Assembly: GCF_900100345.1 (NCBI RefSeq)
Contig: NZ_FMTT01000019.1
Span: 1 to 64,000 of the forward strand
Source of the DNA: Paenibacillus tianmuensis
Lineage (GTDB): Bacteria; Bacillota; Bacilli; Paenibacillales; NBRC-103111
DNA: 64,000 nucleotides
Reading direction: 5' to 3'
This document shows, piece after piece, positions 6,315 through 30,390 of the stretch. A model generated the notes under the pieces. That model was given only the letters and a program-made list of their open reading frames with translations, searched no databases and was not told the origin of the DNA. A program made the translations under genes and the position numbers. Each line of letters begins with the position of its first letter. Position 1 is the first letter of the stretch.

Positions 6315-6728
6315 ATGAGTGATGATATCCGCAGGAATATGGCGCTTTTTCCCATCGGCATCGTAATGAAGCTGACCGATTTAACCGCGCGGCAAATCCG
6401 GTACTACGAACAGCACGAGCTTGTAATTCCGGCCCGAACAGGAGGCAACCAGCGGTTGTATTCGTTCAACGATGTCGAGAGACTGCTCGAGATTAAAGAT
6501 TTGATTGAAAAGGGAGTCAACATCGCCGGGATCAAGCAGGTGCTGCTGCCGGTCGACAAAAACTCCGAGGAAGCGACTGTCTTGAACGAGCAAACCGAGG
6601 TCAAACGTCGGGAAATGACCGATACGCAACTGCACAAAATGCTTAAGCAGGAGCTGTTGGTCGGCGGCAAGCGTCCGAATCAGGTTTCGCTGATTCAGGG
6701 CGAATTATCCCGCTTTTTCCGCAAGTAA
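6315..6728 (+). CDS. glnR: GlnR, MerR-family nitrogen repressor
   Basis: 137 aa. A MerR-type winged helix with the GlnR hallmark FPIGIVMKLTDLTARQIRYY and the recognition segment QRLYSFNDVERLLEIK. In Bacilli, feedback-inhibited glutamine synthetase unlocks the GlnR C-terminal tail so that it binds DNA and represses glnRA and other nitrogen genes. The C-terminal tail rich in basic and polar residues is present (SLIQGELSRFFRK). The ATG at 6315 has GGAG 8 nt upstream; an in-frame GTG at 6306 overlaps that site and is less likely. Gene order glnR-glnA is the normal one. Confidence 0.93.
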   Translation: MSDDIRRNMALFPIGIVMKLTDLTARQIRYYEQHELVIPARTGGNQRLYSFNDVERLLEIKDLIEKGVNIAGIKQVLLPVDKNSEEATVLNEQTEVKRREMTDTQLHKMLKQELLVGGKRPNQVSLIQGELSRFFRK

Positions 6729-6820
6729 GGCTGTGTTGGGGCCTGTTCCGGTAGCGCTTTCGCGCCTGTCCGGACAACGCTCCGTTAATTTGGCTCATAG
6801 TTTAAGGAGGAGATTGTACA

Positions 6821-8158
<1,338 letters not shown>

Positions 8159-8386: not shown

Positions 8387-9007
8387 TTAATGAATATTGC
8401 GGAACACGCCGATGACTTTGCCCAGGATAGATACGTTCTTCAGACGGAGCGGCTCCATCGTAGGGTTTTCCGGTTGTAGACGGATGTGATCCTTTTCTTT
8501 AAAGAACGTTTTGACCGTCGCTTCGTCGTCCTCGGTCATGGCGACCACGATCTCGCCGTTGCTCGCCGTTTGCTGTTGGCGAACGATGACGTAGTCCCCG
8601 TTGCGAATGCCTGCGTCGATCATACTTTCGCCGATGACGCTCAACATGAAGACGTTATGTTCCCCGACGACGTTGCTCGGAAGCGGGAAGTAGTCTTCAA
8701 TGTTCTCCGTCGCGGTAATCGGTACGCCGGCCGTAACTCGTCCAATCAACGGGACGCGAGAAACCGATACTGCGAATGCGCCGTCGCCGGTCGTGCCGTC
8801 CAAAATCTCAATGGCTCTGGGCTTCGTAGGATCGCGCCGGATCAGCCCTTTCTTTTCCAGCCGCTCCAAATGACCGTGTACCGTTGAACTGGAAGCAAGA
8901 CCGACCGCTTCGCCGATTTCCCGAACGGACGGAGGATACCCTTTATCTTTGACCTCGTTCTTGATGAACTCCAGAATAGCTTGCTGGCGAGTGGATATCT
9001 TGCCCAT
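8387..9007 (-). CDS. lexA: LexA repressor, SOS response regulator
   Basis: 206 aa, the family length. N-terminal winged helix (about 1-65) and C-terminal S24 autopeptidase domain. The self-cleavage site is Ala93-Gly94 in RVTAGVP, the nucleophile Ser128 is in GESMIDAGI, and the general base Lys166 is in ATVKTF. Under DNA damage RecA filaments trigger self-cleavage and derepression. The ATG at 9007 has GGAGTG 8 nt upstream; a longer frame to 9034 lacks a good site. It is divergent from yneA, with four LexA boxes in between, so it should repress itself and yneA. Confidence 0.96.
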
Positions 9008-9042
9008 ATGAATCACTCCATTTTTGGTAATCATTACTTAGG

Positions 9043-9071
9043 AGTATAACACAGAACCGGAGTTCGTACAA
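9043..9071 (-). promoter_or_regulatory. lexA promoter with internal LexA box
   Basis: On the minus strand: TTGTAC (complement of 9066-9071), 17-bp spacer, TATACT (complement of 9043-9048). The LexA box CGAACTCCGGTTCT (complement of 9053-9066) occupies the spacer, the classic layout for autorepression. Confidence 0.8.
9053..9066. promoter_or_regulatory. LexA box 1
   Basis: Reads CGAAC-TCCG-GTTCT on the minus strand, matching the Gram-positive consensus CGAAC-N4-GTTCG at all but the last base. It lies inside the lexA promoter. Confidence 0.85.
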
Positions 9072-9082
9072 ACATAAGTTCG
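9069..9082. promoter_or_regulatory. LexA box 2
   Basis: Reads CGAAC-TTAT-GTTTG on the minus strand, a good match to the consensus, between the two divergent promoters. Confidence 0.85.
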
Positions 9083-9091
9083 AAAAATGGA

Positions 9092-9120
9092 TTGACACAA
9101 ACATTTGTTCGTGTTAAATT
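9092..9120 (+). promoter_or_regulatory. yneA promoter with internal LexA box
   Basis: TTGACA (9092-9097), 17-bp spacer, TAAATT (9115-9120). LexA box 3 fills the spacer, so LexA would block RNA polymerase directly. Confidence 0.8.
9098..9111. promoter_or_regulatory. LexA box 3
   Basis: Reads CGAAC-AAAT-GTTTG on the minus strand, within the yneA promoter spacer. Confidence 0.85.
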
Positions 9121-9126
9121 CAGAAC

Positions 9127-9140
9127 AGAACAAATGTTTG
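9127..9140. promoter_or_regulatory. LexA box 4
   Basis: AGAAC-AAAT-GTTTG, just downstream of the yneA -10 and 13 bp before its start codon. A fifth, weaker match (CGAAC-ATAT-GTACG, 9241-9254) lies inside the yneA coding region. Confidence 0.75.
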
Positions 9141-17785: not shown

Positions 17786-18464
17786 ATGGACGGAGCAGCC
17801 GCTGTTCGGCATCGCTCTGACGGTGCTGGCTTATGTGTTTGCACTCGCGCTGCAGCAGCGCTGGAAAGCGCTTCATCCGCTGCTGACGTGCTCGGCGCTT
17901 GTGATCGCCTTCCTGCTCGCCACGAATGTGCCTTACGAAGCGTACCGAAAAGGTGGGGATTATATTGTGTTCCTGCTCGGTCCCGCGACGGTAGCGCTCG
18001 GCGTCCCGCTGTACAAAAATGCGCAGCGCATCCGCAATGCCCTGCTGCCGATTGCTGCGGGCATTACTGCGGGTTCAATCAGCGCGCTGCTGCTGGCTGC
18101 CGGACTCGTCTGGGGGCTCGGAGGCAGCCGAGAGCTGCTTGTGACGATGATGCCCAAATCGGTCACTTCGCCGATTGCGCTTGAGATTTCCCGGCAAGCG
18201 GGAGGGATTCCCGAGCTGACCGCCGTGCTGACCGTTCTGACAGGCCTGATCGGAAGCATGTTCGGACCGTGGCTGCTGCGGCTGGCAGGCGTGCGCGACG
18301 ACATTTCGATCGGCACCGCCATCGGCACTTCGTCGCACGGTATCGGCACGGCGCGGATCATCCGCGATTCGGAGCTGGCGGGCAGCGTCAGCGGCTTTGC
18401 GATGGGCGCTGCGGCGATTTTGACATCGTTGCTTTTTATTCCGCTGTATTGGTGGTTGCGGTGA
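17772..18464 (+). CDS. lrgB: CidB/LrgB family membrane protein
   Basis: 230 aa, six or seven hydrophobic segments. The LrgB core LVTMMPKSVTSPIALEISR and the late motif IGTSSHGIGTARIIRDSE are clear. It works with the LrgA-type partner encoded immediately upstream. The ATG at 17772 has AAGGAGGGGG about 10 nt upstream and gives the family length. A longer frame from 17733 lies inside lrgA and was rejected. Confidence 0.92.
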   Translation: MTFLEWTEQPLFGIALTVLAYVFALALQQRWKALHPLLTCSALVIAFLLATNVPYEAYRKGGDYIVFLLGPATVALGVPLYKNAQRIRNALLPIAAGITAGSISALLLAAGLVWGLGGSRELLVTMMPKSVTSPIALEISRQAGGIPELTAVLTVLTGLIGSMFGPWLLRLAGVRDDISIGTAIGTSSHGIGTARIIRDSELAGSVSGFAMGAAAILTSLLFIPLYWWLR

Positions 18465-18511
18465 CGCTTCAAATCGCATTACTGAACAAAATAGAGTCTG
18501 TTTCCATGATG

Positions 18512-18540
18512 GAGCCGTTCTGCTAAACGGTTCATTTTTT
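18512..18540 (+). terminator. Terminator after lrgAB
   Basis: GAGCCGTT/AACGGTTC stem (one G-U pair) with a 6-nt loop, followed by TTTTTT. Confidence 0.7.
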
Positions 18541-18629
18541 GTACCGGACGGCCGGACAAGCCGGGCGAAGCTAACCCACAAAATGCTGTACTATCGTTCC
18601 ATAATTGGCAAATATGGTTTTGTCCCGAG

Positions 18630-18659
18630 GTATGAATAAAAAACGATCGGGTTAGAATA
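18630..18659 (+). promoter_or_regulatory. Candidate forespore (sigma-F/G-like) promoter
   Basis: GTATG (18630-18634), 15-bp spacer, GGTTAGAATA (18650-18659). The -10 matches the sigma-F pattern GGNRANAHTR at nine of ten positions and the -35 matches GYWTA at four of five. It lies 37 bp before the downstream start. Read by eye only. Confidence 0.35.
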
Positions 18660-18696
18660 GTTTCAGTAAACAACCAAGCATGGGGAGGTTGACGGA

Positions 18697-18912
18697 ATGG
18701 ATTTTACAAGCCAGGATATCGCCGTAATCGAGCAGGCGCTGCAGCTTGCCATTCGGTCGCAATCAAGCGGGGCCAAGGCGCTGCCGTTCCAGGAAGTGCT
18801 GGGCAAGCTACAGGCGAGCGCAAACGCGGCCATGAACTCAGCTTCGTTTCATAAGGTGTCTATGCATGACGGCATAAGATTCGACTACGACGATTCCTCC
18901 GATATGCTCTAA
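18697..18912 (+). CDS. Small protein of unknown function
   Basis: 71 aa, with GGGGAGG about 11 nt before the ATG. An N-terminal helical half (SQDIAVIEQALQLAIRS) is followed by an Ala-rich helix and an acidic tail ending DYDDSSDML. No Cys and no membrane segment. Family not recognised. The possible forespore promoter upstream suggests a role in sporulation, but this is inference. Confidence 0.6.
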   Translation: MDFTSQDIAVIEQALQLAIRSQSSGAKALPFQEVLGKLQASANAAMNSASFHKVSMHDGIRFDYDDSSDML

Positions 18913-19223
18913 GTTGATCCATGCGTTTAAAGCAATCGGAACCCAGCCGATCCGATGAGCGGCAGGCCAAGGCTATTCTGCTCGACTGCCGCTTACCGGT
19001 TTCACGAGAGATTATTCCCCAATAAAATCTGCATCGCATCAAGCCAACCTTCATGGTGAGTATTACTTTTCCTTCCAAAATCGAAGTGCCCCCTTTTACA
19101 GACGACTCTACAACGAAAAACTTTCCCGGGAAAGCGCAGAATACGACATGCGTTCTTCAAGTTTCAGCACCGCTTAAGCGCGTCATTCCGATCCCGTTCG
19201 ACCGGCTTCGCTAAGAAAAGAGA
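18913..19223. other. Intergenic region without a recognisable gene
   Basis: About 310 bp between the 71-aa gene and the mrfA promoter. Short frames exist on both strands but none has a ribosome binding site or a recognisable product. No terminator hairpin with a T run was seen for the upstream gene. Confidence 0.6.
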
Positions 19224-19252
19224 TTGTCACACGAACATGCATTCGATATAAT
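19224..19252 (+). promoter_or_regulatory. mrfA promoter
   Basis: TTGTCA (19224-19229), 17-bp spacer, TATAAT (19247-19252): a strong sigma-A promoter 34 bp before the mrfA start codon. It probably drives the whole 19.3-27.8 kb block. Confidence 0.85.
19232..19245. promoter_or_regulatory. Candidate LexA box in the mrfA promoter
   Basis: CGAAC-ATGC-ATTCG: one mismatch from CGAAC-N4-GTTCG. It lies entirely inside the promoter spacer, the same placement as the boxes in the lexA and yneA promoters of this window. Confidence 0.65.
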
Positions 19253-19286
19253 GAAAGGAACGTTACCGTCAAAAGGAGCTGCACTT

Positions 19287-21572
19287 ATGAACCGTTTGAC
19301 TGGCAAGGTCTCTTCCATCGAAGAAATGATCGATTTGATCCGCTCGTCGTCCGAGCTGATGTCCCAGGTGACTTACTGGCATACGATTCCGCCGCGGGAA
19401 GGGCGGTACGAGTCATTCCCGGAAGGCTTGCACTCTGAGTTGCGGGAAGCATTGCTCGCCCGGGGCATCGGACAATTATATACGCATCAAGCCCAATCGT
19501 TCCGCGAAGTAAGTGAGGGACGCCACGTCGTGACCGTAACCCCGACCGCCTCGGGCAAGACGCTGTGCTACAACCTGCCGGTGCTGGAGGGCATATTGAA
19601 AGACGAGAGCGCGCGTGCGCTCTATTTGTTTCCGACTAAAGCGCTCGCTCAAGACCAGGTGGCCGAGCTTCAAGAGTTGGCGAATATCATGGGCGCGGAT
19701 ATCAAAACCCATACCTACGACGGGGATACGCCGCCGACCGTACGCCAAGCCATTCGCAATGCCGGGCACATCGTTGTGACGAACCCGGATATGCTGCACT
19801 CCGCGATTTTGCCGCATCACACGAAATGGGTAAAGTTATTCGAGAATATAATGTTCATTGTTATTGACGAGGTTCACTCCTATCGCGGAGTATTCGGCAG
19901 CCATGTGGCCAACGTAATTCGGCGGCTTAAGCGGATTTGCCGCTTTTACGGCTCGAATCCGCAGTTTATTTGCGCTTCGGCGACGATCGACAATCCGAAG
20001 GAGCATACAGAGCGGCTGATCAGGGAGAGCGTATCCCTTGTCAACGACAACGGCGCGCCCGCGGGAGAGAAGCATTTTGTCTTCTATAATCCTCCTGTGG
20101 TCAATCAGCAGCTTGGCATCCGCAAGAGCAGCGTGCTGGAGACGAGGAAAATCGCTGCGATGCTGCTGCGCCAAGGCATACAAACAATCGTTTTCGCACG
20201 GAGCCGCGTACGGGTCGAAATTTTGCTTACGTATTTGCAGGAACTGGTCGCCCACGAATTGGGCACGAAATCGATCCGCGGTTACCGCGGAGGGTATCTG
20301 CCCAAGCTGCGCCGTGAAATCGAGCGGGGGCTGCGCAGCGGAGAGATCCGCGGCGTCGTCAGCACAAACGCGCTGGAGCTCGGGATCGATATCGGGCAGT
20401 TGCAGGCCTGCGTGCTGAACGGCTATCCCGGCACCATCGCAAGCACGTGGCAGCAGTCGGGCCGCGCCGGGAGGCGGCAGGAAAGCTCCGTCACGTTCCT
20501 CGTCGCAAGCAGCAATCCGCTGGATCAATATATGATCGAGAACCCCAGATTTTTTTTCGAGCGTCCGCCGGAGCGGGCGCTGATCGAGCCGGACAACCTT
20601 ATCATCTTGGTTGATCATGTCAAATGCGCCGCCTACGAGCTGCCATTCGAAGAGAACGAACAATTTGGCGGCGAATCGCTGCATGATATTTTGGAGTTTT
20701 TGACGGAGGAACGCATATTGCACCGGGTCAAAAGCAGGTGGCACTGGATGGAGCAGTCGTTTCCGGCGCACGACATCAGCTTGCGTTCAGCCGCACAGGA
20801 AAATTTCATTATCATCGATATGACGAACGGCGCCCGGGTCATCGGCGAGGTAGACCGGTTCAGCGCGCCGACGATGATTCACGAGGAAGCAATCTATATC
20901 CACGAGGGCGTACAGTATCAGGTGGAGAAGCTCGATTACGAGGAGAAGAAGGCTTACATACGCGAGGTCGACGTCGATTATTTCACGGACGCCAGCCTGG
21001 CCGTCCAGTTGAAGGTGCTGCATGTGCACCGGGAGGCAATTGACAGGGGGCTCAAGCGGCAGTTCGGCGAAGTGACCGTGAACGCGAAGGCGACTATTTT
21101 CAAAAAAATCAAGCTGCGGACCCATGAGAATATCGGATCGGGGCCGATTCATCTGCCGGAGGAGGAGCTGCACACGAGCTCTTACTGGTTCACGTTCGAC
21201 GACGAGATTGCCGCGGGTATGACGGTGAACGATATGCAGTTTGCGCTGCTGGGGCTGGCGAACGTGCTTGTGCATATCGCGCCGCTTTATTTGATGTGCG
21301 ATCCGCATGACATCCGTGTCGTTCCGCAGGTGAAGGCGGTGCATAACAAGCAGCCTACGATATTTTTCTACGACCGTTACCCGGGCGGCGTTGGGCTTAG
21401 CGAGCGGCTGTACGAAGTGCATGGGGAACTGCTCGCCGAAGCGCAGCGCCTGATTTCGTCGTGCGGCTGTTTAAGCGGCTGTCCGGCCTGTGTCGGACCG
21501 ATTGAAGAAGTCGGGCTGACGGGGAAGCAGCTGTCGCTCGGGCTGCTGAAGCAGTTGGAGGCCTCGCGATGA
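19287..21572 (+). CDS. mrfA: MrfA, DEAD/DEAH-box DNA repair helicase (YprA)
   Basis: 761 aa. An SF2 helicase core has motif I TPTASGKT (about 85-92), motif II DEVH (about 194), SATI (motif III) and QSGRAGRRQ (motif VI). The C-terminal DUF1998 domain carries four cysteines in CGCLSGCPACVGP near residue 725. B. subtilis MrfA works with MrfB in a UvrA-independent excision of mitomycin C lesions. The ATG at 19287 has AAGGAG 8 nt upstream and lies downstream of the promoter. A TTG further upstream overlaps the -35 and is excluded. It overlaps mrfB by 4 bp. Confidence 0.93.
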   Translation: MNRLTGKVSSIEEMIDLIRSSSELMSQVTYWHTIPPREGRYESFPEGLHSELREALLARGIGQLYTHQAQSFREVSEGRHVVTVTPTASGKTLCYNLPVLEGILKDESARALYLFPTKALAQDQVAELQELANIMGADIKTHTYDGDTPPTVRQAIRNAGHIVVTNPDMLHSAILPHHTKWVKLFENIMFIVIDEVHSYRGVFGSHVANVIRRLKRICRFYGSNPQFICASATIDNPKEHTERLIRESVSLVNDNGAPAGEKHFVFYNPPVVNQQLGIRKSSVLETRKIAAMLLRQGIQTIVFARSRVRVEILLTYLQELVAHELGTKSIRGYRGGYLPKLRREIERGLRSGEIRGVVSTNALELGIDIGQLQACVLNGYPGTIASTWQQSGRAGRRQESSVTFLVASSNPLDQYMIENPRFFFERPPERALIEPDNLIILVDHVKCAAYELPFEENEQFGGESLHDILEFLTEERILHRVKSRWHWMEQSFPAHDISLRSAAQENFIIIDMTNGARVIGEVDRFSAPTMIHEEAIYIHEGVQYQVEKLDYEEKKAYIREVDVDYFTDASLAVQLKVLHVHREAIDRGLKRQFGEVTVNAKATIFKKIKLRTHENIGSGPIHLPEEELHTSSYWFTFDDEIAAGMTVNDMQFALLGLANVLVHIAPLYLMCDPHDIRVVPQVKAVHNKQPTIFFYDRYPGGVGLSERLYEVHGELLAEAQRLISSCGCLSGCPACVGPIEEVGLTGKQLSLGLLKQLEASR

Positions 21573-23212
21573 GCTCGCTTAAGGAAAGGCTGCTGCGGCA
21601 CAAAAAGTCGATAGCGGGTACGCAGGAACGCGAGGAAGAAGTCAAGGCCCGAATGCCTGCGGGAGACGAGCCGCCAGGGCCGGCCGAAGAGGGTCAGGCG
21701 ACTCACGGCGGAAGTAGACCGGAGTCCGCGGCGGAGATTGACGAATGGATGGTCGTCGGCGCGGCTATGGAGCATACGGAGTGGGGCGATTTCGTGATCC
21801 GCCGCCGCACGTACGAAGCGGGGTTTCGTCACGGGGAGCATGAGCTTGGTCGTTTATCATCCTGCGCGGAGGAGTTGTTTGCGCTGCTGGAGCCGACGGC
21901 AGGCAAGGCTGCGGCGAACCGTTCGGCCGCTCCATTCCACGAACGGCTGCTCTTTCTGGATACCGAGACGACAGGGCTAGGGCATGGAGCAGGCAATGTG
22001 CCGTTTATGGTCGGAGTCGGATTTTACCAAGGCGATCAATATCATATCGAGCAGATGCTGATCCGGCACCCCGGCGAAGAGTCGGCGATGCTGGCCTATT
22101 TGGAGCAAAAGCTTGCTGCACATCCGGTGTTAATCTCGTATAACGGCAAATCGTTCGATTGGCCAATTCTCAAAAACCGCTATATCATGAACCGGATGGA
22201 GCTTGTCGCCGAGCTTTCGGGGCACATCGATTTTTTGCATCCTTCCCGCAGCTTGTGGAAGCATACGCTGCCCTCCTGCCGACTAGGCAAAGTAGAGGAG
22301 GAGCGGCTTGGCGTCCGCCGCGAAGAAGATGTTCCGGGCTCGCTTGCGCCGACGCTCTATTTTCAATATTTGGCGCAGCGCGATCCTTCCGTTTTGGAAG
22401 GCGTGTTCGTGCATAACGAGCTGGACGTGCTGTCGCTAGCTGGCTTGGCCGTTCATTTTGCCTGCTTGCTGAACGGTTCCTATGATTGGTCTCACGCGAG
22501 GTTGTTCGGTTTAGAGGAGTGCTTTCGGCTTGGCCTGTGGCTCGATAAAATCGGTCGAAGCGGCATGGCTGACACCGTGATGAATGCGCTGACCGAAGAG
22601 CTGCTTGCTGCGGACGAGCTTGCTTCCGAAGAACCGTGCCTGCTGCCGCTTGCGCAATTTTGCAAGCGACGGGGACGCTATACGCAAGCCTGCTCACTCT
22701 GGAGCCGGTATATCGCCCTGAAGGGCGGTCGGGCAACGGCTTCGCTGGAGCCGTATATCGAGCTGTCCATGTACTATGAGCATAAGGAAAAACAGTGGGA
22801 GCGCGCTCTCGACTATGCGCAGGAAGCGCTGGACCATCTCTGGCGGCGAGATGCCTTGAAGCGGAGCGGGGAGCGCAAATCGAACGCACTTAGCGGCAAC
22901 CGTTCAAGGGAAAAAGAGGAGCGCGAAGAGGATGCCGAAGCCGTCAGTCTGCGCAAGCGAATCGAACGGCTGCGGCGGAAAGCGTCCTCTTCCGCTAGTG
23001 CGAGGCGTGCTGCAAGCGCTGTTGAGCAAGATGCATCCGATTCGCTACTGCCGACGCAGTCAAGCGCCCAGACACAGGCAAAGCTATCCGCCGGGGCAGC
23101 TGGTCAAGCTCCGGTTCAGGGGGCAGCGTCTGCGGTATCCCGTGTTCCTCAATCAACAAGAAAAAGAAAGTCCAGCCTGTCTGCGGTGGAACAGCTTTCT
23201 ATGCCGCTGTAA
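21569..23212 (+). CDS. mrfB: MrfB, DEDDh-type exonuclease with TPR-like tail (YprB)
   Basis: 547 aa. A ribonuclease-H-like exonuclease domain starts at about residue 128 with LFLDTETTG and continues through VLISYNGKSFDWPILKNRY and HNELDVLSLAGLAVHF. A helical, TPR-like region follows (about 330-440). The last 100 residues are Ser/Ala/Gln-rich and look disordered. MrfB is the metal-dependent nuclease partner of MrfA in mitomycin repair. The ATG overlaps the mrfA stop (ATGA), showing coupled translation. The low-complexity tail is longer than I would expect for the family. Confidence 0.92.
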   Translation: MSSLKERLLRHKKSIAGTQEREEEVKARMPAGDEPPGPAEEGQATHGGSRPESAAEIDEWMVVGAAMEHTEWGDFVIRRRTYEAGFRHGEHELGRLSSCAEELFALLEPTAGKAAANRSAAPFHERLLFLDTETTGLGHGAGNVPFMVGVGFYQGDQYHIEQMLIRHPGEESAMLAYLEQKLAAHPVLISYNGKSFDWPILKNRYIMNRMELVAELSGHIDFLHPSRSLWKHTLPSCRLGKVEEERLGVRREEDVPGSLAPTLYFQYLAQRDPSVLEGVFVHNELDVLSLAGLAVHFACLLNGSYDWSHARLFGLEECFRLGLWLDKIGRSGMADTVMNALTEELLAADELASEEPCLLPLAQFCKRRGRYTQACSLWSRYIALKGGRATASLEPYIELSMYYEHKEKQWERALDYAQEALDHLWRRDALKRSGERKSNALSGNRSREKEEREEDAEAVSLRKRIERLRRKASSSASARRAASAVEQDASDSLLPTQSSAQTQAKLSAGAAGQAPVQGAASAVSRVPQSTRKRKSSLSAVEQLSMPL

Positions 23213-23274
23213 GTATAATTTCATTTCGGGGTGGAAATACATGGTAAGATCATGATCCGAAAGGAGCAATGACG

Positions 23275-24084
23275 ATGCCTGAGCTGCCCGAAATGGAAAA
23301 TTACCGAAAGCTGCTAAGCGAGCGAATCATAGGCCGGACTATGACGGATACGGAAGTCACAAGAGAAAAATCGATTAACGTGACGCCCGAGCGATGGGCG
23401 CAGGAGTTGATCGGTCACGCCGTTTCCCGCATCGATCGGAGAGCGAAGCATTTACTGTTTCGTTTAACGACAGGCAACGTTCTGGTGCTTCATCTTATGC
23501 TCGGAGGCATGATGTTCTACGGCAGGGCAGAGGAAAAGCCCGATCGGTCCGTTCAAGTGCGGCTCGGCTTCGGAGATCGTCACTTGTTTTTTATCGGGCT
23601 GCGGCTCGGTTATTTGCATCTCCATGCTCCGTCGGAAGTCGATGAGCTAATGAATAAGCTCGGTCCCGAGCCATTTGATCCGGGGCTGACGCCCGACCGT
23701 TTCGCCGAGCGTCTGCGCGCAAAAGCGGGTACGCTCAAAAGCAGTCTCGTCGATCAGAGCGTCTTTGCGGGCATCGGCAACTGCTACAGCGATGAAATCT
23801 GCTATCATGCAGGTCTCCTGCCGTCCCGGCGTCCCAGTGCGCTCTCCGATGAAGAGCTTCACCGCTTATTCCACTCCATGCGTGAAGTGCTGACGGAAGC
23901 GACGCAGGGCGGCGGGTACATGGAAATGCCGCTATTCGACGGCGATTCGCTTACGGGCGGCTTCGACAGCCGCTGCCGGGTTTACGACCGCGAAGGAGAA
24001 CCGTGCTTGCGCTGCGGCAGCCCGATTGCCAGACGCGATGTCTCGTCCAAGAAATCGTTTTGCTGTCTTGTCTGTCAGAGGTGA
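23275..24084 (+). CDS. Fpg/Nei family DNA glycosylase/AP lyase
   Basis: 269 aa. It begins MPELPEME; the family needs Pro2 as the N-terminal nucleophile and Glu3 as the acid, so the ATG at 23275 rather than the one at 23269 is correct, and AAGGAG lies 8 nt before it. The H2TH region reads LVDQSVFAGIGNCYSDEICYHAG and the C-terminal zinc finger has EPCLRCGSPI ... FCCLVCQR. These enzymes excise oxidised bases and nick the abasic site. Whether it prefers 8-oxoguanine (Fpg) or oxidised pyrimidines (Nei) cannot be decided here. Third gene of the repair block. Confidence 0.92.
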   Translation: MPELPEMENYRKLLSERIIGRTMTDTEVTREKSINVTPERWAQELIGHAVSRIDRRAKHLLFRLTTGNVLVLHLMLGGMMFYGRAEEKPDRSVQVRLGFGDRHLFFIGLRLGYLHLHAPSEVDELMNKLGPEPFDPGLTPDRFAERLRAKAGTLKSSLVDQSVFAGIGNCYSDEICYHAGLLPSRRPSALSDEELHRLFHSMREVLTEATQGGGYMEMPLFDGDSLTGGFDSRCRVYDREGEPCLRCGSPIARRDVSSKKSFCCLVCQR

Positions 24085-24097
24085 AGGGGCGATAACC

Positions 24098-24946
24098 ATG
24101 CGTTTCGGCTGCCATATCAGTATTCGGGGCGGTTATGCGGAAGCGGCGAAGACGGCGGTAAAGCTAGGAGCCCAGTCGTTTCAATATTTCCCCAAAAATC
24201 CACGAAGCCTGACCGTTAAGTCGTTCAACCGCCAGGACGCCGAGCAGTGCGCCCGGTTTTGCCGCGAGCACGGCCTGTTCAGCATCGCTCACACTCCTTA
24301 TCCGACGAATCTTGCCGTAGGCCCAGGCGAGCTGCGGCAGGCGACGATCGCCTCGCTTCGCAACGATCTTGAGATTGCGGACGCGTGCGGCTCGGTCGGC
24401 GTCGTGGTCCATTTTGGCAAATATAAAGGGGAAGACCCGTTACAAGGCTATAAAAATATTATACAATGTATGAATGAAGCGCTTGCCGGCTATACGGGCC
24501 GTTCGCTGCTGCTGATCGAGAATCAGGCGGGCGAAGGAACCTCTATGGGGACGTCGCTTGAGGAACTGGTGCAGGTGCGGCATCTTTGCGCTTTCCCGGG
24601 GCTTGTCGGCTTTTGCCTCGACACGTGTCATGCTTTTGCCTCGGGCTTGTGGCCCTCCTCCAAGGACGGGTGGCCGGAGCTGGAGCGGCATGCGGTAGCG
24701 ACCGGTTATTTGCAGCATCTTCGGGCGATCCATCTGAACGATTCCGTGTATCCGCGAGGCGCGCATAAAGATCGGCATGCCATGATCGGCCGAGGCGAAA
24801 TCGGGGAAGCCAGGTTCGCTTCGCTGCTGCGCTCGACTGTGCTCAAGTCGATGACCGACCTTCCGGCGGTGCTGGAAACGCCTGTCCTGCGGGGGAGCAC
24901 GCACGCTTCCGAAATTCGATATGTTAAGGAGCTGAGCGAAGGGTGA
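24098..24946 (+). CDS. nfo: Endonuclease IV (AP endonuclease)
   Basis: 282 aa TIM-barrel of the AP endonuclease 2 family. Motifs: GCHISIRGGY at the start, ENQAGEG (metal Glu), GFCLDTCHAFASG, HLNDS and HAMIGRGEIG. It cuts abasic DNA left by glycosylases and also some oxidised bases. The ATG is 13 bp after the glycosylase stop, with GAAGGGG upstream. Pairing a glycosylase with its AP endonuclease gives a complete incision pathway within one operon. Confidence 0.92.
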   Translation: MRFGCHISIRGGYAEAAKTAVKLGAQSFQYFPKNPRSLTVKSFNRQDAEQCARFCREHGLFSIAHTPYPTNLAVGPGELRQATIASLRNDLEIADACGSVGVVVHFGKYKGEDPLQGYKNIIQCMNEALAGYTGRSLLLIENQAGEGTSMGTSLEELVQVRHLCAFPGLVGFCLDTCHAFASGLWPSSKDGWPELERHAVATGYLQHLRAIHLNDSVYPRGAHKDRHAMIGRGEIGEARFASLLRSTVLKSMTDLPAVLETPVLRGSTHASEIRYVKELSEG

Positions 24947-25284
24947 TTCACGTTTATTTGGACGATTATCGCGCTTGTCCAAAAGGCTTCGTGCCTGCCC
25001 GTACCGTTGACGAATGCTTGCTTCTGCTGCGGGAATGCGAAGTGGACGTGCTTTCGCTCGACTACGACTTGGGCTGGGGACAGCCCAACGGACTGGAATT
25101 GGTCCGGGCGATGGCAAGCGCCGGTTTATTTCCACAGCGCATTTATTTGCACACGTCGAGCGATGCGGGTCGTCAGCAAATGTTTCAACTACTGTATGCG
25201 AACAAGCCGGAGCACGTCCAGCTGACGAACGGCCCGATGCCTCCCGAGCTGCTTATGGAAATTTTCGAAACTGTAAAAGAATAG
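24943..25284 (+). CDS. cREC: cyclic-phosphate-processing receiver-like domain protein
   Basis: 113 aa. It begins with the cREC hallmark VYLDDYRACPKGF, followed by VLSLDYDLGWGQPNGLEL and LHTSSDAGRQQM. This is a receiver-like fold proposed from comparative genomics to act on cyclic nucleotide or RNA-end phosphates rather than as a phosphorelay receiver. The GTG start overlaps the nfo stop (GTGA), so translation is coupled. Its presence among DNA repair genes is unusual and hints that damaged RNA ends, or a nucleotide signal, are handled at the same time. Biochemical activity is unproven. Confidence 0.8.
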   Translation: MIHVYLDDYRACPKGFVPARTVDECLLLLRECEVDVLSLDYDLGWGQPNGLELVRAMASAGLFPQRIYLHTSSDAGRQQMFQLLYANKPEHVQLTNGPMPPELLMEIFETVKE

Positions 25285-25297
25285 GTTGTGATTCAAC

Positions 25298-26071
25298 ATG
25301 ACAATGGTCTTATCCTTGCAAGATATTTATTTTATTCGCGAAGACCGGCATATTTTGTCCGGCGTCAATATCGATATTCGTCAAGGGGAGCATTGGGTCG
25401 TGCTCGGCCGGAACGGCTCGGGCAAAACGACGGTTCTGGAGCTGATGAACGGCTACGAGTTCCCGACCCGGGGAAAAGTGCAAGTGCTCGGCAATACATA
25501 CGGGCAGTGCGACGTCCGCGAAGTGCGCAAGCAGATCGGTTATATCAGCCAATCGCTGTATGAGAAATTGAATGCCGGGGACCCGGTGTGGGAAGTGATT
25601 GCCACCGGCGAATTCGGTTACTTGCGTTTTTATGAAGAAATCCCGCAGTCTGCCCGCGAGAAGGCGATCAGCATGCTGGACAAGGTGAAGCTCGTCCATT
25701 TGGCTAATCAGCCGCTTGGTACGCTGTCGCAAGGCGAGCGGAAAAAAGTGATGCTGGCCCGCGCTTTGATGACAAATCCGTCCATTCTCATTATGGACGA
25801 GCCTTGTTCGGGTCTCGACTTGTACGAACGTGAGCGGCTGCTTGAAAATATCAACGTGCTCGGCGGCCAGCAAATGACAGTCATTTATGTCACGCATCAT
25901 ATCGAAGAGATCGTACCGCTTTTCACGCACGTTGTGCTGATCGAGCAGGGACGTATTATTGCTTCCGGCGCGAAGCGGGACGTATTGACCGAGGAAAATT
26001 TGGAAAAAGCGTATCAAGTGCCGATCCGGATCGAATGGTCCGGAGACCGGCCTTGGATTAAGGTGCTGTGA
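25298..26071 (+). CDS. ABC-type ATPase, YlmA-like, without permease
   Basis: 257 aa, one ABC nucleotide-binding domain: Walker A GRNGSGKT (about 41-48), Q-loop YISQSLYEKL, signature LSQGERKKV, Walker B ILIMDEPCSGL, H-loop YVTHH. No transmembrane gene is adjacent, so it is probably a soluble ATPase or borrows a permease from elsewhere. It starts 13 bp after the cREC gene with only a weak ribosome binding site (AGGTTGTG), and its last base overlaps the next start codon. Confidence 0.88.
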   Translation: MTMVLSLQDIYFIREDRHILSGVNIDIRQGEHWVVLGRNGSGKTTVLELMNGYEFPTRGKVQVLGNTYGQCDVREVRKQIGYISQSLYEKLNAGDPVWEVIATGEFGYLRFYEEIPQSAREKAISMLDKVKLVHLANQPLGTLSQGERKKVMLARALMTNPSILIMDEPCSGLDLYERERLLENINVLGGQQMTVIYVTHHIEEIVPLFTHVVLIEQGRIIASGAKRDVLTEENLEKAYQVPIRIEWSGDRPWIKVL

Positions 26072-27105
26072 TGAGCGACTCGACATTTATCGGCACGTCC
26101 AACCGGGGATTTGCCCAGCAGGCGCAAGAAGAGCTTCGGCGTCTGCTGGGTCAGTCGGTTAAGTTCGAATGGCTGGCTCCGGGCGAAGTGTTCGTATTTA
26201 CATCCGAATTTGAGCGAAGCGATGCGATTGGGCGCATCCTGGCGCAGGAGCCTGTGTTTCTGCGGCACATACAGCCGGTCGACGTGGAGCAATTGTGGGA
26301 CGGCAGTTTCGATCATGCAATTCGCCATATTCATGAGATGCTGGTCGCTAGGGGAGCGTCGCTGAAGCAGATGAACGTAGCGGTACAAGCCAGAAAAGCG
26401 GAAGGGGAAGCTTTAGCGAGCCTTTCCCTGCCGACGGTGCGCTCTTCCGTTGAAGAGATGCTGGCAACGGTCGAGGCGAATCCGGTATCGCGCGATGCGG
26501 ACTTCATCCTTTCGCTGTATTTCACAGAAGTTAAGCTATATTTTGGCTTGTCCCGGCCGCAGGACAATTTGTCCGATTGGTCCGGCGGCGCCATCCGCTT
26601 CCGCAAGGAGGAAGGGCAAGTATCGCGAGCCAAGTTCAAGCTGTTGGAGGCGGAGCAGGCCTTCGGCTTGGATTTGTCTCAATACCGGGCGGCGCTCGAT
26701 ATCGGCGCGGCGCCGGGCGGGTGGACGTCGCTGCTGCTGGAACGTGGACTTCGGGTAACCGCGATCGACCCGGCCAAGCTGGATGCGGCGTTGCTGCGTC
26801 ATCCGCAGCTTACGTATTTTCCGAAAAAGGCGGATGAGGTTTCGTTTGCGGCGAACACATTCGACCTGCTCGTTTGCGACATGAGCTGGAGTCACCGGCA
26901 AATGGCCAGGCTCGTCCGGGGGCTGTTGGGTGCGCTGCAGCCGGGCGGAACGGCTGTTATCACGGTGAAGCTGATGCACAAGAAGGCGTTTCAAACGATT
27001 CGCGAAGTGGTGAGCGATCTGGCTCCGGAGCTGGAGCTGCAGCAAGCAAAGCAGCTTTTTCACAACCGCGAGGAGCTGACGCTGTTTTTGATGAAACAAG
27101 TGTGA
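26071..27105 (+). CDS. RlmM/FtsJ-type SAM-dependent methyltransferase
   Basis: 344 aa. An N-terminal region resembling the THUMP-containing half of RlmM (about 1-180) is followed by a Rossmann methyltransferase with ALDIGAAPGGWTSLLLERG (SAM motif I). The 2'-O-methyltransferase tetrad K-D-K-E can be traced: Lys in SRAKFKLLEA, Asp in LLVCDMSW, Lys in VITVKLM, Glu in REELTLFL. The target is probably an RNA ribose, by analogy to RlmM (23S C2498), but the substrate is not known. The ATG overlaps the ABC stop by one base (TGATG). Confidence 0.82.
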   Translation: MSDSTFIGTSNRGFAQQAQEELRRLLGQSVKFEWLAPGEVFVFTSEFERSDAIGRILAQEPVFLRHIQPVDVEQLWDGSFDHAIRHIHEMLVARGASLKQMNVAVQARKAEGEALASLSLPTVRSSVEEMLATVEANPVSRDADFILSLYFTEVKLYFGLSRPQDNLSDWSGGAIRFRKEEGQVSRAKFKLLEAEQAFGLDLSQYRAALDIGAAPGGWTSLLLERGLRVTAIDPAKLDAALLRHPQLTYFPKKADEVSFAANTFDLLVCDMSWSHRQMARLVRGLLGALQPGGTAVITVKLMHKKAFQTIREVVSDLAPELELQQAKQLFHNREELTLFLMKQV

Positions 27106-27145
27106 CCGGTTGTTCTGGCAATGAGAGCCGAAAGGAGCCTTGCGA

Positions 27146-27778
27146 ATGTCGGATACGATTTTTTGGAACGATTTGTTTTCCAAGCTGAGACCGGAGCAGG
27201 TCAAGTACGATATGTGGCTGGAGCCGTTCATTGGAGGCCTTGATCCGTCCGAGACGGGGTCCATTCTGGATCTTGGCTGCGGCGCGGGGAACGATACGCT
27301 GTATTTAACGGAAAAAGGCTACTCCGTCATCGCTTGCGACCGTTCAGCCGAAGCGCTTATGCTGGTGCAAGAGCTGGTATCGCAGGCTAAGACGAAGCAG
27401 CTTGATCTGCTGCAGCCACTGCCGTTTCCGGACGGTTCGGCGCGGGCTGTAGTAGCCGATTTAAGCCTCCATAACTTCTCTTGGAGCGATACCGGGAGAA
27501 TCGTTGCGGACATTTCCCGGGTACTTCAGCCGGGCGGGCAGCTTTGGTGCCGGGTCAATTCGACAAGGGACTTCGAATACGGCGCCGGACAAGGAAGGCT
27601 GATCGAGCCGAATTACTACGAGCTCGACGGGAAGCGCAAGCGTTTTTTCGACCGTCCGCACCTGGAACGGCTGTTTCAGAAATGGCAAGTCACGTTTGTA
27701 CAGGAGCAGACCATGAACCGCTATGATAAACCGAAGGTTGTCTGGGTACTGGCGGCAGCCAAGCCCGAGCTTCGTTAA
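27146..27778 (+). CDS. Class I SAM-dependent methyltransferase
   Basis: 210 aa. Motif I ILDLGCGAGNDTLYL (about 41-55), acidic post-motif VIACDRSAEAL, motif IV VVADLSLHNFSW, and the usual ISRVLQPGGQLWCRVNS strand. UbiE/Methyltransf_11-like; substrate unknown. The ATG at 27146 has AAGGAG 8 nt upstream. Last gene of the eight-gene block, 40 bp after the RlmM-like gene. Confidence 0.85.
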   Translation: MSDTIFWNDLFSKLRPEQVKYDMWLEPFIGGLDPSETGSILDLGCGAGNDTLYLTEKGYSVIACDRSAEALMLVQELVSQAKTKQLDLLQPLPFPDGSARAVVADLSLHNFSWSDTGRIVADISRVLQPGGQLWCRVNSTRDFEYGAGQGRLIEPNYYELDGKRKRFFDRPHLERLFQKWQVTFVQEQTMNRYDKPKVVWVLAAAKPELR

Positions 27779-27856
27779 TAGGCGATGCAACTGGGTGATA
27801 CGGAAGTGTAGATCGGGAAACGGACAAAGTGGAAACGTAATTTTTGCTCCGAACTC

Positions 27857-27884
27857 TTGCGCTACCCATTTTTTATGCTATAAT
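27857..27884 (+). promoter_or_regulatory. Promoter upstream of the Tad operon leader
   Basis: TTGCGC (27857-27862), 16-bp spacer, TATAAT (27879-27884), about 175 bp before tadZ. The predicted transcript runs directly into the hairpin at 27914-27962. Confidence 0.7.
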
Positions 27885-27913
27885 ACGGTTAATTGCATAT
27901 TTACAAAAGCGGA

Positions 27914-27962
27914 AGCACCGCTGACCAAGGAAAGGATTTCCTGTCAGTGTGTGCTTTTTTTT
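27914..27962 (+). terminator. Terminator-like hairpin (attenuator or small-RNA end) before the Tad operon
   Basis: Three stacked helices: AGCAC/GTGCT (27914-27918 with 27951-27955), CTGAC/GTCAG (27921-27925 with 27943-27947) and an inner AGGAAA/TTTCCT, followed by eight T. It starts about 25 nt after the predicted transcription start, so it either ends an RNA of roughly 70-75 nt or acts as a conditional terminator for tadZ. It could also serve as the terminator of the upstream block. Confidence 0.7.
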
Positions 27963-28060
27963 GTGTTTCTAAGGGGGAACTGGAGAGTATGTGATCTATG
28001 AAGCGCAAGGAAGAAATGGAATAAGCTTATCGCACAGATACGAAGGAGAGGGAGTCGTCG

Positions 28061-29173
28061 GTGGCCAAAATTATGCTGGTGCTGTTGGACGAGGATGCTT
28101 ATTTTGGCGAAATGCTGTCCGCTTACGTTCGCTCGTCCGAATATGCGGAGCGGTTTAGTATACGCGTGTTTACGTCGATGGATGAAGGAGTCCGGTTTGT
28201 AGAGCAAACCAAGGAACCGCTGATCATTATGGTCCATGAATCGCTTATGCCGCTGCCTGATGCCGTTTTCGGGCTTAAACCGGGGTGTACGGTCGTGATC
28301 AGCGACTCGGCAAGAGAGGGCGGACTGCTCGAATATCCGATTATGTTTAAATACCAGCCGCTGGACAGGCTGTTATCGGGTATTACCGCGCATTACAACG
28401 AATTTTTTGCAGGCGAGCCGCTGCGGGGGAACCGGGGAGCGAAGACGGTCGCCGTTTATTCGGCCGTCGGTGGAACGGGCAAAACGGTAACGGCCGTTCA
28501 TTTGGCGTACCAGCTTGCCCAGCAGGGGGAACGCGTCTTCTGTTTGGGTCTGGAGCTGCTCCCCTCCCGGGCTTGGTATGTTCAGGAAGGAGCGGAGGAA
28601 ACGGAATCGTTTTCCCAGCTTTTATATTATGCCAAGACCGCTCCAGCGCTTATTTCTTCCAAGCTGGAAGGGCTCAAAAGGAAGCATCCTGACTGCAAGT
28701 TCGATTACGTTCCTCCGTCGATGCACCTGAAAGAGCTGGCGGAGATGGAGGCGTCCGATTTGAAGCACATGTTGCAAGGGATCGAAGCCACGAGGATGTA
28801 CGACCGTATCGTAATCGATTTGGACTCGGCGCCGCATGCGGCGACAAGGGAAGCGATTCAAGAGGCCGACCTCGTTCTATGGCTGCTGCTGGACGACTGC
28901 GTACATTTGAGTAAAAACGCCGAGCTGCTCCGAAGCTGGACTGCCGGGGAACGAACGACAGACTGGCTGCATAGGGTGCGGTTCGTACATAACAAAAATG
29001 CCGGACAGGCGGTGAACCGGTTCGAAGCGTACGGATTTGCAAATAGCAGCGAACTGCCCTACGTTCCCGAATGGAAAGGCGTTGGACGAGTGGAGGACAT
29101 GATGTCGCCGGCCTTTGCCTTGGCCGCTGCCGGTTTGGTTCGAGCCGGCGGGGAGGGATCGCGGTACCGATGA
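28061..29173 (+). CDS. tadZ: TadZ/CpaE-like ATPase with N-terminal receiver-like domain
   Basis: 370 aa. An atypical receiver-like domain (about 1-125; KIMLVLLDEDAYFGEML) is followed by a MinD/ParA-type ATPase domain with P-loop GGTGKTVTAVHLA (about 137-150) and the acidic strand YDRIVIDLDSAP. TadZ/CpaE proteins mark the pole or site where the Tad pilus machine assembles. The GTG start follows GGAGAGGG. The first gene of the pilus operon, it overlaps tadA by 4 bp. Confidence 0.85.
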   Translation: MAKIMLVLLDEDAYFGEMLSAYVRSSEYAERFSIRVFTSMDEGVRFVEQTKEPLIIMVHESLMPLPDAVFGLKPGCTVVISDSAREGGLLEYPIMFKYQPLDRLLSGITAHYNEFFAGEPLRGNRGAKTVAVYSAVGGTGKTVTAVHLAYQLAQQGERVFCLGLELLPSRAWYVQEGAEETESFSQLLYYAKTAPALISSKLEGLKRKHPDCKFDYVPPSMHLKELAEMEASDLKHMLQGIEATRMYDRIVIDLDSAPHAATREAIQEADLVLWLLLDDCVHLSKNAELLRSWTAGERTTDWLHRVRFVHNKNAGQAVNRFEAYGFANSSELPYVPEWKGVGRVEDMMSPAFALAAAGLVRAGGEGSRYR

Positions 29174-30390
29174 AGGATGTCGCCGTAAAGCAGCTAATCA
29201 AACAGCGCGTACAGGACAGCTTTGATTATGGAAATGCCTTGTCGGACGAGCAGCTCATGGAGCAGATTGAGCAAGTCGTGTTTGCTTACTCCAGGGAATC
29301 ATTTTTGACCGCGGGGCAAAAGCAGACTTTGGTGCAAGAGGTGTTTCACTCGTTCCGCGGTTTGGACGTGCTCCAACCGCTCGTCGACGATCGGACGATT
29401 ACTGAAATTATGATCAATTCTCACGACCAGGTCTTTGTTGAAAAAGACGGCCGCGTGCTGGAGACGGATATTCGCTTCGAAAGCAGGGAGAAGCTGGAAG
29501 ATACGATTCAAGCGATCGTCGGCCGGGTCAACCGGATTGTGAACGAGTCGACTCCGATCGTTGACGCCCGACTTGCGGACGGCTCCCGCGTCAATGTCGT
29601 CCTCCCGCCGATTGCGTTGAAAGGTCCGGCGATGACGATCCGGAAATTTCCGGAAAAGCCGATGACGCTGGAAGATCTGATTGCACGTCAGGCGCTTTCG
29701 CGCGAAGCGGCGCAACGGCTTATTTGCTTCGTTAAGGCAAAATACAATTTGTTTATCGGAGGGGGAACAGGTTCGGGGAAAACGACGTTTCTCAATGCGC
29801 TGGGACAATTTATTCCGCCGGACGAACGCGTCATCACGATCGAAGATTCGGCCGAACTGCAAATTCGCGGCGTACCGAACCTCGTTAGCCTCGAAACCCG
29901 CAATGCTAATTCGGAAGGAAAAGGCGAGATTACGATTCGCGACTTGATTCGTTCATCACTGAGGATGCGGCCGAATCGCATCATTGTCGGCGAAGTCCGG
30001 GGGGCTGAAGCCTTGGATATGCTTGCAGCACTTAATACTGGGCACGACGGGGCGTTATCGACCGGCCATGCGAATTCGGTTCAGGATATGCTCAGTCGTT
30101 TGGAGACGATGGTATTGAGCGGGGCCAGCCTGCCGGTCGAAGTTGTGCGCAAGCAAATCGCATCGGCGATTGATGTCATGATCCACTTGACCCGTCTTCG
30201 CGACCGTTCCAGACGGGTGACGGAAATTACCGAAATTGTCGGGGTTGATGAAGGGGAGGTGAAGCTCAATCCGCTTTACCGGTTCGTGGAGACAGGTGAA
30301 ACGCCGGAAGGCAAAGTCATTGGGCAGCTTGAGCCTACCGGGAATGAACTGGCAGGAACATGGAAGCTGGAGATGGCTGGCTTGATCTAA
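29170..30390 (+). CDS. tadA: TadA/CpaF secretion ATPase
   Basis: 406 aa type II/IV secretion ATPase. Walker A GGGTGSGKTT (about 196-205), the Asp box ITIEDSAELQI, Walker B region RMRPNRIIVGEVRGAEA and the His box GHDGALSTGHANS are all present. It powers pilin polymerisation (and retraction) of the Flp pilus. The ATG at 29170 overlaps the tadZ stop (ATGA); a longer frame inside tadZ was rejected. Confidence 0.95.
   Translation: MKDVAVKQLIKQRVQDSFDYGNALSDEQLMEQIEQVVFAYSRESFLTAGQKQTLVQEVFHSFRGLDVLQPLVDDRTITEIMINSHDQVFVEKDGRVLETDIRFESREKLEDTIQAIVGRVNRIVNESTPIVDARLADGSRVNVVLPPIALKGPAMTIRKFPEKPMTLEDLIARQALSREAAQRLICFVKAKYNLFIGGGTGSGKTTFLNALGQFIPPDERVITIEDSAELQIRGVPNLVSLETRNANSEGKGEITIRDLIRSSLRMRPNRIIVGEVRGAEALDMLAALNTGHDGALSTGHANSVQDMLSRLETMVLSGASLPVEVVRKQIASAIDVMIHLTRLRDRSRRVTEITEIVGVDEGEVKLNPLYRFVETGETPEGKVIGQLEPTGNELAGTWKLEMAGLI

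Follow-up and report, generated by a model that had tools for sequence, protein, structure and literature searches.

In a stretch of 64,000 nucleotides from Paenibacillus tianmuensis (the window; positions 1 to 64,000 of contig NZ_FMTT01000019.1, NCBI RefSeq assembly GCF_900100345.1), eight genes follow one another on the forward strand: the helicase and exonuclease genes mrfA and mrfB, a Fpg/Nei-type DNA glycosylase gene (nei), an endonuclease IV gene (nfo), and genes for a cREC (cyclic-phosphate processing receiver) protein, a stand-alone ATP-binding cassette (ABC) ATPase, an RlmM-like methyltransferase (rlmM) and a second methyltransferase (MT2). An earlier note on this sequence proposed that they form one SOS-controlled damage-response operon behind a single strong promoter. 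Here, we compare the block with its counterparts in relatives. The most informative result is a two-promoter anatomy, with a LexA-type operator in the promoter of mrfAB (P1) and a predicted sigma-F-type, or forespore, promoter (P2) for the base-excision module that starts with nei.

The eight-gene locus and its proteins

The genes span 19287-27778 by the open reading frame (ORF) list and family searches (Table 1), and the tight co-directional packing claimed for them, with overlaps or gaps of at most 62 bp, is present: the junctions, in gene order, are an overlap of 4 bp, gaps of 62 and 13 bp, an overlap of 4 bp, a gap of 13 bp, an overlap of 1 bp and a gap of 40 bp. The start previously given to the block, 19224, is the first base of the P1 -35 hexamer and not a gene start; the likely start of mrfA is the ATG at 19287, which follows AAAGGAG. 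No permease gene lies next to the ABC ATPase gene within the block.

The first two genes resemble the MrfAB (YprAB) mitomycin repair pair of Bacillus subtilis, an adjacent helicase and DEDDh exonuclease, and their identification as such is upheld by Pfam domains and by matches to the solved relatives 6znp and 8un9. MrfA is 98-99% identical to that of P. tyrfis and P. ehimensis, and at E 0.001 nothing else in the genome matches MZB. MrfB residues D131, E133, D197, H282 and D286, assigned to the DEDDh set by eye, are invariant in 78 aligned rows; by sequence, the pair has both the MZB-type helicase and the DEDDh residues of MrfAB. It differs from the B. subtilis pair as described in that a LexA-type operator precedes it and a base-excision module follows.

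Both nei and nfo are additional copies, as the window genome has another Fpg-family (mutM-like) gene at G000:C60 and another nfo, 35% identical, at G000:C43. The block nei scores below the MutM (Fpg) equivalog cut-offs (199.7 vs 212 and 181.9 vs 203.3 bits) and has Pro2, E3, K58 and four finger cysteines, the residues that we take to be catalytic being among them. The nine positions that we take to be metal ligands of Nfo are kept in the window and invariant in 61 rows.

The cREC protein exceeds the PF20274 cut-off, has a REC-like fold in its predicted structure (predicted local distance difference test score, pLDDT, 95.6) and retains the catalytic aspartates, with D7 and D8 at least 90% conserved and D40 invariant in 47 rows; receiver domains match the structure at template-modelling (TM) scores of about 0.5-0.6, only three of them at E 0.001 or better. 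In its family and conserved aspartates it is like the cRec domain systems of a jumbo phage survey (PMC7824862), the accessible text of which proposes the activity without demonstrating it and names RNA ligases and NAD/ADP-ribose enzymes as neighbours, whereas the neighbours here are DNA base excision repair genes. A second cREC gene, 45% identical, is located at G000:C44:134414-134716 of the window genome.

The RlmM-like protein falls below the RlmM equivalog cut-off (98.4 vs 176 bits). Its K190, D270, K300 and E335, presumably the K-D-K-E set, are invariant in 37 rows, and because these residues are kept it may act like RlmM. Any role in repair of cREC, the ABC ATPase, the RlmM-like protein or MT2 is conjectural.

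Table 1. Features of the block and its surroundings (window coordinates)
Feature	Position	Strand	Evidence
lexA-like gene, context only	8387..9034	-	ORF recognised by eye; LexA-like box cluster at 9053-9140
Promoter P1, TTGTCA-17-TATAAT	19224..19252	+	11/12 hexamer matches; TTGnnn-box-TAnnAT context kept in 58/80 relatives
LexA-type operator CGAACATGCATTCG in P1 spacer	19232..19245	+	Form CGAACRTRYATTCK genome-wide at recA, Y-family polymerase, mrfA
mrfA (YprA helicase with MZB domain)	19287..21572	+	Pfam DEAD, Helicase_C, MZB, WHD_HRQ1; PDB 6znp YprA 1051 bits
mrfB (DEDDh 3'-5' exonuclease)	21569..23212	+	RNase_H_2 138 bits; PDB 8un9 MrfB 161 bits
Promoter P2, GTATA-N15-GGAAATACAT, predicted sigma-F (forespore) type	23213..23242	+	Consensus match, conservation in relatives
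Fpg/Nei-type DNA glycosylase (nei)	23275..24084	+	Fapy_DNA_glyco 85.7 bits, H2TH 69.9 bits
Endonuclease IV (Nfo)	24098..24946	+	TIGR00587 174.9 bits vs cut-off 129.65
cREC protein	24943..25284	+	PF20274 99 bits vs cut-off 27
Stand-alone ABC ATPase	25298..26071	+	ABC_tran 109.9 bits; nearest solved chain by sequence 2ihy
RlmM-like FtsJ-fold methyltransferase	26071..27105	+	RlmM model 98.4 bits; 4atn
Class I S-adenosylmethionine (SAM) methyltransferase MT2, local addition	27146..27778	+	Methyltransf_25 64 bits; in 17/80 relatives
Terminator-like hairpin with T-run, after MT2	27902..27965	+	-29.1 kcal/mol, z -3.96 for 27880-27965

The LexA-type box at P1

In a sigma-70-type scan of 18000-29500, P1 was the best of nine promoter-like sites (shuffled sequences averaged 5.5, standard deviation 2.4), and sites inside the block reached only 9 of 12 matches. 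The claim of one strong promoter therefore holds for sigma-70-type sites; it does not extend to the sigma-F-type element P2, to which such a scan is blind.

The box form CGAACRTRYATTCK has three exact matches in the 6.03-Mb genome – upstream of recA, a Y-family DNA polymerase gene and mrfA – and none in the reversed control. It is present in 25 of 25 genomes of the genus, where it matches 93 times and the reversed pattern 22 times; when 32 of these 93 sites were read, 15 belonged to recA, eight to mrfA, four to the polymerase gene (one about 400 bp off) and five to none of these. A relative set was formed of 80 of the 130 loci fetched by MrfA, and here the box is found within 300 bp upstream of mrfA exactly in 68/80 (a partly circular count, because this form was chosen after viewing the upstream sequences of the relatives), with one mismatch in 7/80 and with at least three mismatches in 5/80. 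The recA and polymerase matches are independent of that choice. All 69 nei-bearing loci of the set have the box at no more than one mismatch, and in control windows elsewhere in the loci it was exact in 0 of 8,000 and had one mismatch in three. Two other patterns were rejected: a first LexA consensus, CGAACNNNNGTTCG, proved too loose at up to two mismatches (73 window matches vs 44 by chance), and the classical form CGAACRNRYGTTYG matched the genome 16 times, with several of the sites inside ORFs, compared with 9 times for the reversed control.

The operator overlaps a promoter and is common to recA and the Y-family polymerase gene of the same genome, as in the LexA/RecA SOS regulon of Bacillota, the differing point being mrfA as a member. 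Because the box stands at these three genes, is kept in relatives and is nearly absent from controls, and because a lexA-like gene lies in the window, SOS control of mrfAB is strongly predicted from the sequence, with LexA the presumed regulator. To this extent the proposed SOS control of the block stands at its front.

The base-excision module in relatives

Conservation of the gene order, for which the earlier note had suggested a neighbourhood comparison, is well supported. With each gene placed by its top tblastn match (E at most 1e-6) past mrfA and on its strand, the order nei-nfo-cREC-ABC-rlmM follows mrfAB in 46 of the 80 loci. Another 11 have only nei, cREC and rlmM, with nfo and ABC jointly missing, five have mrfAB alone (L035 among them cut by the contig end), and the remaining 18 lack one or more block genes. 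No alternative order occurs in this count; outside it, L174 has nei ahead of mrfA. MT2, listed earlier as a block member, is present in the window and in 17/80 loci only. In an order-level sample of 89 genomes, MrfA is matched at E 1e-100 or better in 51. A block-type nfo follows on the mrfA strand in 46 of the 51, at a distance of up to 10 kb (up to 4 kb in 39); among the other five, nfo is 16-19 kb away in two and on another contig in two, and the fifth lacks it and matches MrfA only in part. The block order persists at about 50% protein identity and across several families, also where mrfAB is absent, while inserted genes vary.

Glycosylase and apurinic/apyrimidinic (AP) endonuclease, previously read as one pathway, are probably a coupled pair, as their catalytic positions and a tie between them in relatives suggest. 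Of the 69 nei-bearing loci, 58 have nfo, and the glycosylase retains Pro2 in 57 of them; in all 11 loci that lack nfo, Pro2 is gone. Endonuclease IV can process the blocked 3' ends produced by Fpg-type enzymes, so the joint loss of Pro2 and nfo fits such coupling. The 11 loci (L043, L046, L047, L051, L053, L054, L057, L061, L062, L063 and L065) have Gln or Leu in place of Pro2 and no ABC gene either; they are probably one clade, perhaps reflecting one event rather than eleven, and the glycosylase kept in place in them is possibly a dead enzyme. L168, outside the relative set, keeps Pro2 without nfo.

The junction between mrfB and nei is the loose one, with a gap of at most 30 bp in 0 of 67 measured loci against 54 of 58 for nei-nfo. 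Within it lies a HAD-IIA gene in 25/80 loci and a Gfo/Idh oxidoreductase gene in 10, each family being assigned from one representative; a position-blind tblastn count finds HAD-IIA in 30 loci. No terminator-like fold was seen at this junction in the window. One HAD-IIA example (L055:14648-15478) matches TIGR01457, and also 2-phosphoglycolate phosphatase models below their cut-offs. When endonuclease IV cleans broken 3' ends it can set phosphoglycolate free, and we offer as an idea only that the HAD-IIA phosphatase may clear it.

The module also occurs without mrfAB. Reading of the match lists for one family, f10, gave block-type nfo in 28 of 32 genomes and MrfA at E 1e-100 in none of the 32. 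Among 18 further regions fetched, nine with mrfA and nine without, seven f10 loci belong to those without; HAD-IIA, nei, nfo, cREC, ABC and rlmM are present in them, except that cREC was not found in L166, ABC in L167, and nfo and ABC in L168. The exact box is found in 0/9 of the loci without mrfA and 6/9 of those with it; L169 and L172, both with mrfA, have a one-mismatch box by eye, and in L174 nei and mrfA flank the box. In genomes where module and mrfA are apart, L171 has the box at mrfA, and no box is found at the module in L170 or L181. A thioredoxin-like ORF follows cREC in a Cohnella locus (L059:17323-17703, by Pfam) and, by eye, in both f10 loci read at that stretch, L164 and L168. 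In L170, positions 6645-6920 of the reverse-complemented region hold what is left of a glycosylase, a short piece that keeps the N-terminus and zinc finger and lacks the middle, before an apparently intact nfo.

P2 was first spotted by eye and afterwards scored with GYWTA-N14..16-GGNNANA, which we take to be the sigma-F consensus; the sigma-G pattern used below is likewise assumed. At nei the element is exact in 37 of the 69 loci, always with a 15-base spacer, has one mismatch in 16 and two in 11, and is missing from five; after thinning of similar glycosylases (n=56) the counts are 26, 14, 11 and 5. Random 102-base windows (n=6,000) gave 31 exact, 397 one-mismatch and 2,070 two-mismatch elements. 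Upstream of the other genes it is exact in 0/77 (mrfB), 0/60 (nfo), 0/62 (cREC), 0/62 (ABC) and 1/63 (rlmM), or 1/324 in total, and has one mismatch in 0, 1, 4, 9 and 6, respectively (20/324). Relative to controls this is an enrichment of about 90- to 100-fold, seen at the nei junction only. In 38 loci with both HAD-IIA and nei, it is exact in 12 and has one mismatch in eight at nei, compared with one and five upstream of HAD-IIA; it stands at nei even with HAD-IIA in the locus and is therefore independent of the mrfB end. By this assumed consensus, a sigma-F-type promoter lies beside the first gene of the module. Within the window genome, no F-type match was found at the second nfo or the mutM-like gene; that nfo has one sigma-G-type match with one mismatch.

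Past the hairpin that follows MT2, the genes resemble CpaE and CpaF of the Flp pilus (by eye and by weak ParA-type matches). A promoter-like TTGCGC-16-TATAAT (by eye, with a weak -35, and absent from the sites of the sigma-70-type scan) stands just before the hairpin and ahead of the CpaE-type gene, and the two together (27857-27965) may form a leader with attenuation. Where the window has these Flp-pilus-like genes, 34/80 relatives have a Ser/Thr kinase gene after rlmM or ABC (e.g. L042:19745-21334). Between 18000 and 30000, an Rfam search with E no higher than 1 returned a single snoRNA match, which fell below its gathering score and was dismissed.

Two candidate modules and their regulation

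The block is probably best described as two tandem repair modules, an SOS-induced mrfAB and a forespore-loaded base-excision module, the second of which may also be raised by SOS read-through. The LexA-type operator in P1 would keep mrfAB off until RecA triggers self-cleavage of LexA; at bulky adducts MrfA would then unwind the DNA and MrfB digest it. The second module (nei-nfo-cREC-ABC-rlmM, here with MT2) would be made in the forespore from P2 and stored in the spore, where the glycosylase would remove oxidised bases, leaving blocked 3' ends for endonuclease IV to trim, with repair beginning at germination. Read-through is possible because no terminator was seen between the modules in the window, and SOS transcription from P1 could raise the second module in damaged vegetative cells too.

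As a positive control for the forespore assignment we used spoIIR, which sigma-F transcribes in B. subtilis. Matches to it came from 38 genomes, and of the 30 loci scanned 16 have the exact element and 13 a one-mismatch form, with GTTTA or GTATA and GGACATACT a frequent combination. Several observations weigh against the two-module description. The spoIIR regions scanned were 294-405 bp long against 102 bp for nei, their spacers are of 14 or 15 bases against 15 at nei, and spoIIR of the window genome has a one-mismatch element only. P2 is not kept in all lineages that bear the module: 16 of the 69 loci lack it at up to one mismatch, and the element-free lineages include three Cohnella loci. 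In f10 it is found at nei in 0/6 nfo-bearing loci, L168, which lacks nfo, has it with one mismatch, and 3/7 f10 loci have a one-mismatch element before HAD-IIA instead. A stricter P2 pattern matched the genome twice, at nei and within a long ORF that by eye resembles isoleucyl-tRNA synthetase; the reversed control also matched twice, so the pattern shows no regulon. At P1, the mrfA box of many relatives ends in ATTCT, two mismatches off the palindromic LexA consensus, and L176 has mrfA without an exact box or, by eye, a one-mismatch form.

It is possible, if doubtful, that the order was kept by slow rearrangement in one lineage and that cREC, ABC, the RlmM-like gene and MT2 are housekeeping passengers without a role in repair. 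The local distribution of MT2 and the joint absence of nfo and ABC from 11 loci are consistent with this, as is the nearest named model of the RlmM-like protein, a 23S rRNA methyltransferase; against it, the order holds over the protein divergence and families described above, even without mrfAB, while the inserted genes vary.

The proposal closest to the earlier one, a single eight-gene SOS operon read from P1 alone with the GYWTA-GG element irrelevant, is unlikely. Short gaps, the lack of a terminator-like fold at mrfB-nei in the window, the conserved order and P1, and a box at no more than one mismatch in every nei locus all favour it, but it does not account for an element concentrated at one junction, for that junction being the loose one, or for a module that occurs without mrfAB and without an exact box. 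The relatives point to an internal promoter and more than one regulatory unit, and the idea of one damage-response operon gives way before nei's own sigma-F-type element, the loose mrfB-nei gap with its extra genes, and the f10 loci.

Least probable is that another sigma factor with a similar element (for example a sigma-B-like one) reads the second module, making it a stress rather than a spore module: sigma-B-type promoters also carry GTTTA and a GG-rich -10, and P2 is unlike the sigma-G form found at up to one mismatch in 5/6 small acid-soluble spore protein (SASP) genes of the window genome, but spoIIR, which belongs to sigma-F in B. subtilis, has a like element in the same genomes, and Paenibacillaceae are not known to have sigB.

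A tentative extension of the two-module description, which we rate as rather improbable, would make the second module a recovery kit for spore DNA and RNA: forespore-loaded Fpg/Nei and Nfo would repair DNA, RNA and ribosomes would be repaired or re-marked during germination by the RlmM-like 2'-O-methyltransferase, the ABC ATPase and cREC, the last being predicted to act as a cyclic-phosphate or ADP-ribose phosphodiesterase, and SOS transcription running on past mrfAB would share the kit with damaged vegetative cells.

We found no description of the LexA-type plus sigma-F-type two-promoter anatomy, or of this gene combination, in searches of open-licence literature, which leaves out most subscription papers. 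The accessible text of the MrfB paper (PMC11194089) makes no mention of SOS, LexA or an operon, and that of a YprA preprint (PMC12458937) places such helicases with MrfB or without conserved context, glycosylase, Nfo and Paenibacillus going unmentioned in it. According to the accessible text of PMC4770248, sigma-G controls nfo in B. subtilis and spores contain the protein. The block Nfo is like this spore base excision repair enzyme (YqfS) in being an endonuclease IV, here with predicted forespore expression; it differs in being a second Nfo, joined to a Fpg/Nei paralogue and to cREC, ABC and RlmM-like genes, and in having an element of sigma-F rather than sigma-G type.

If the two-module description is correct, MrfAB would be an SOS gene pair in Paenibacillaceae, with a switch that becomes testable. 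So would the roles of three further proteins, cREC, the stand-alone ABC ATPase and the RlmM-like enzyme, because their genes accompany those of base excision repair throughout the group. Five candidate spore-resistance genes would be named, and a single locus would link the damage response of growing cells to the repair stocks of the spore.

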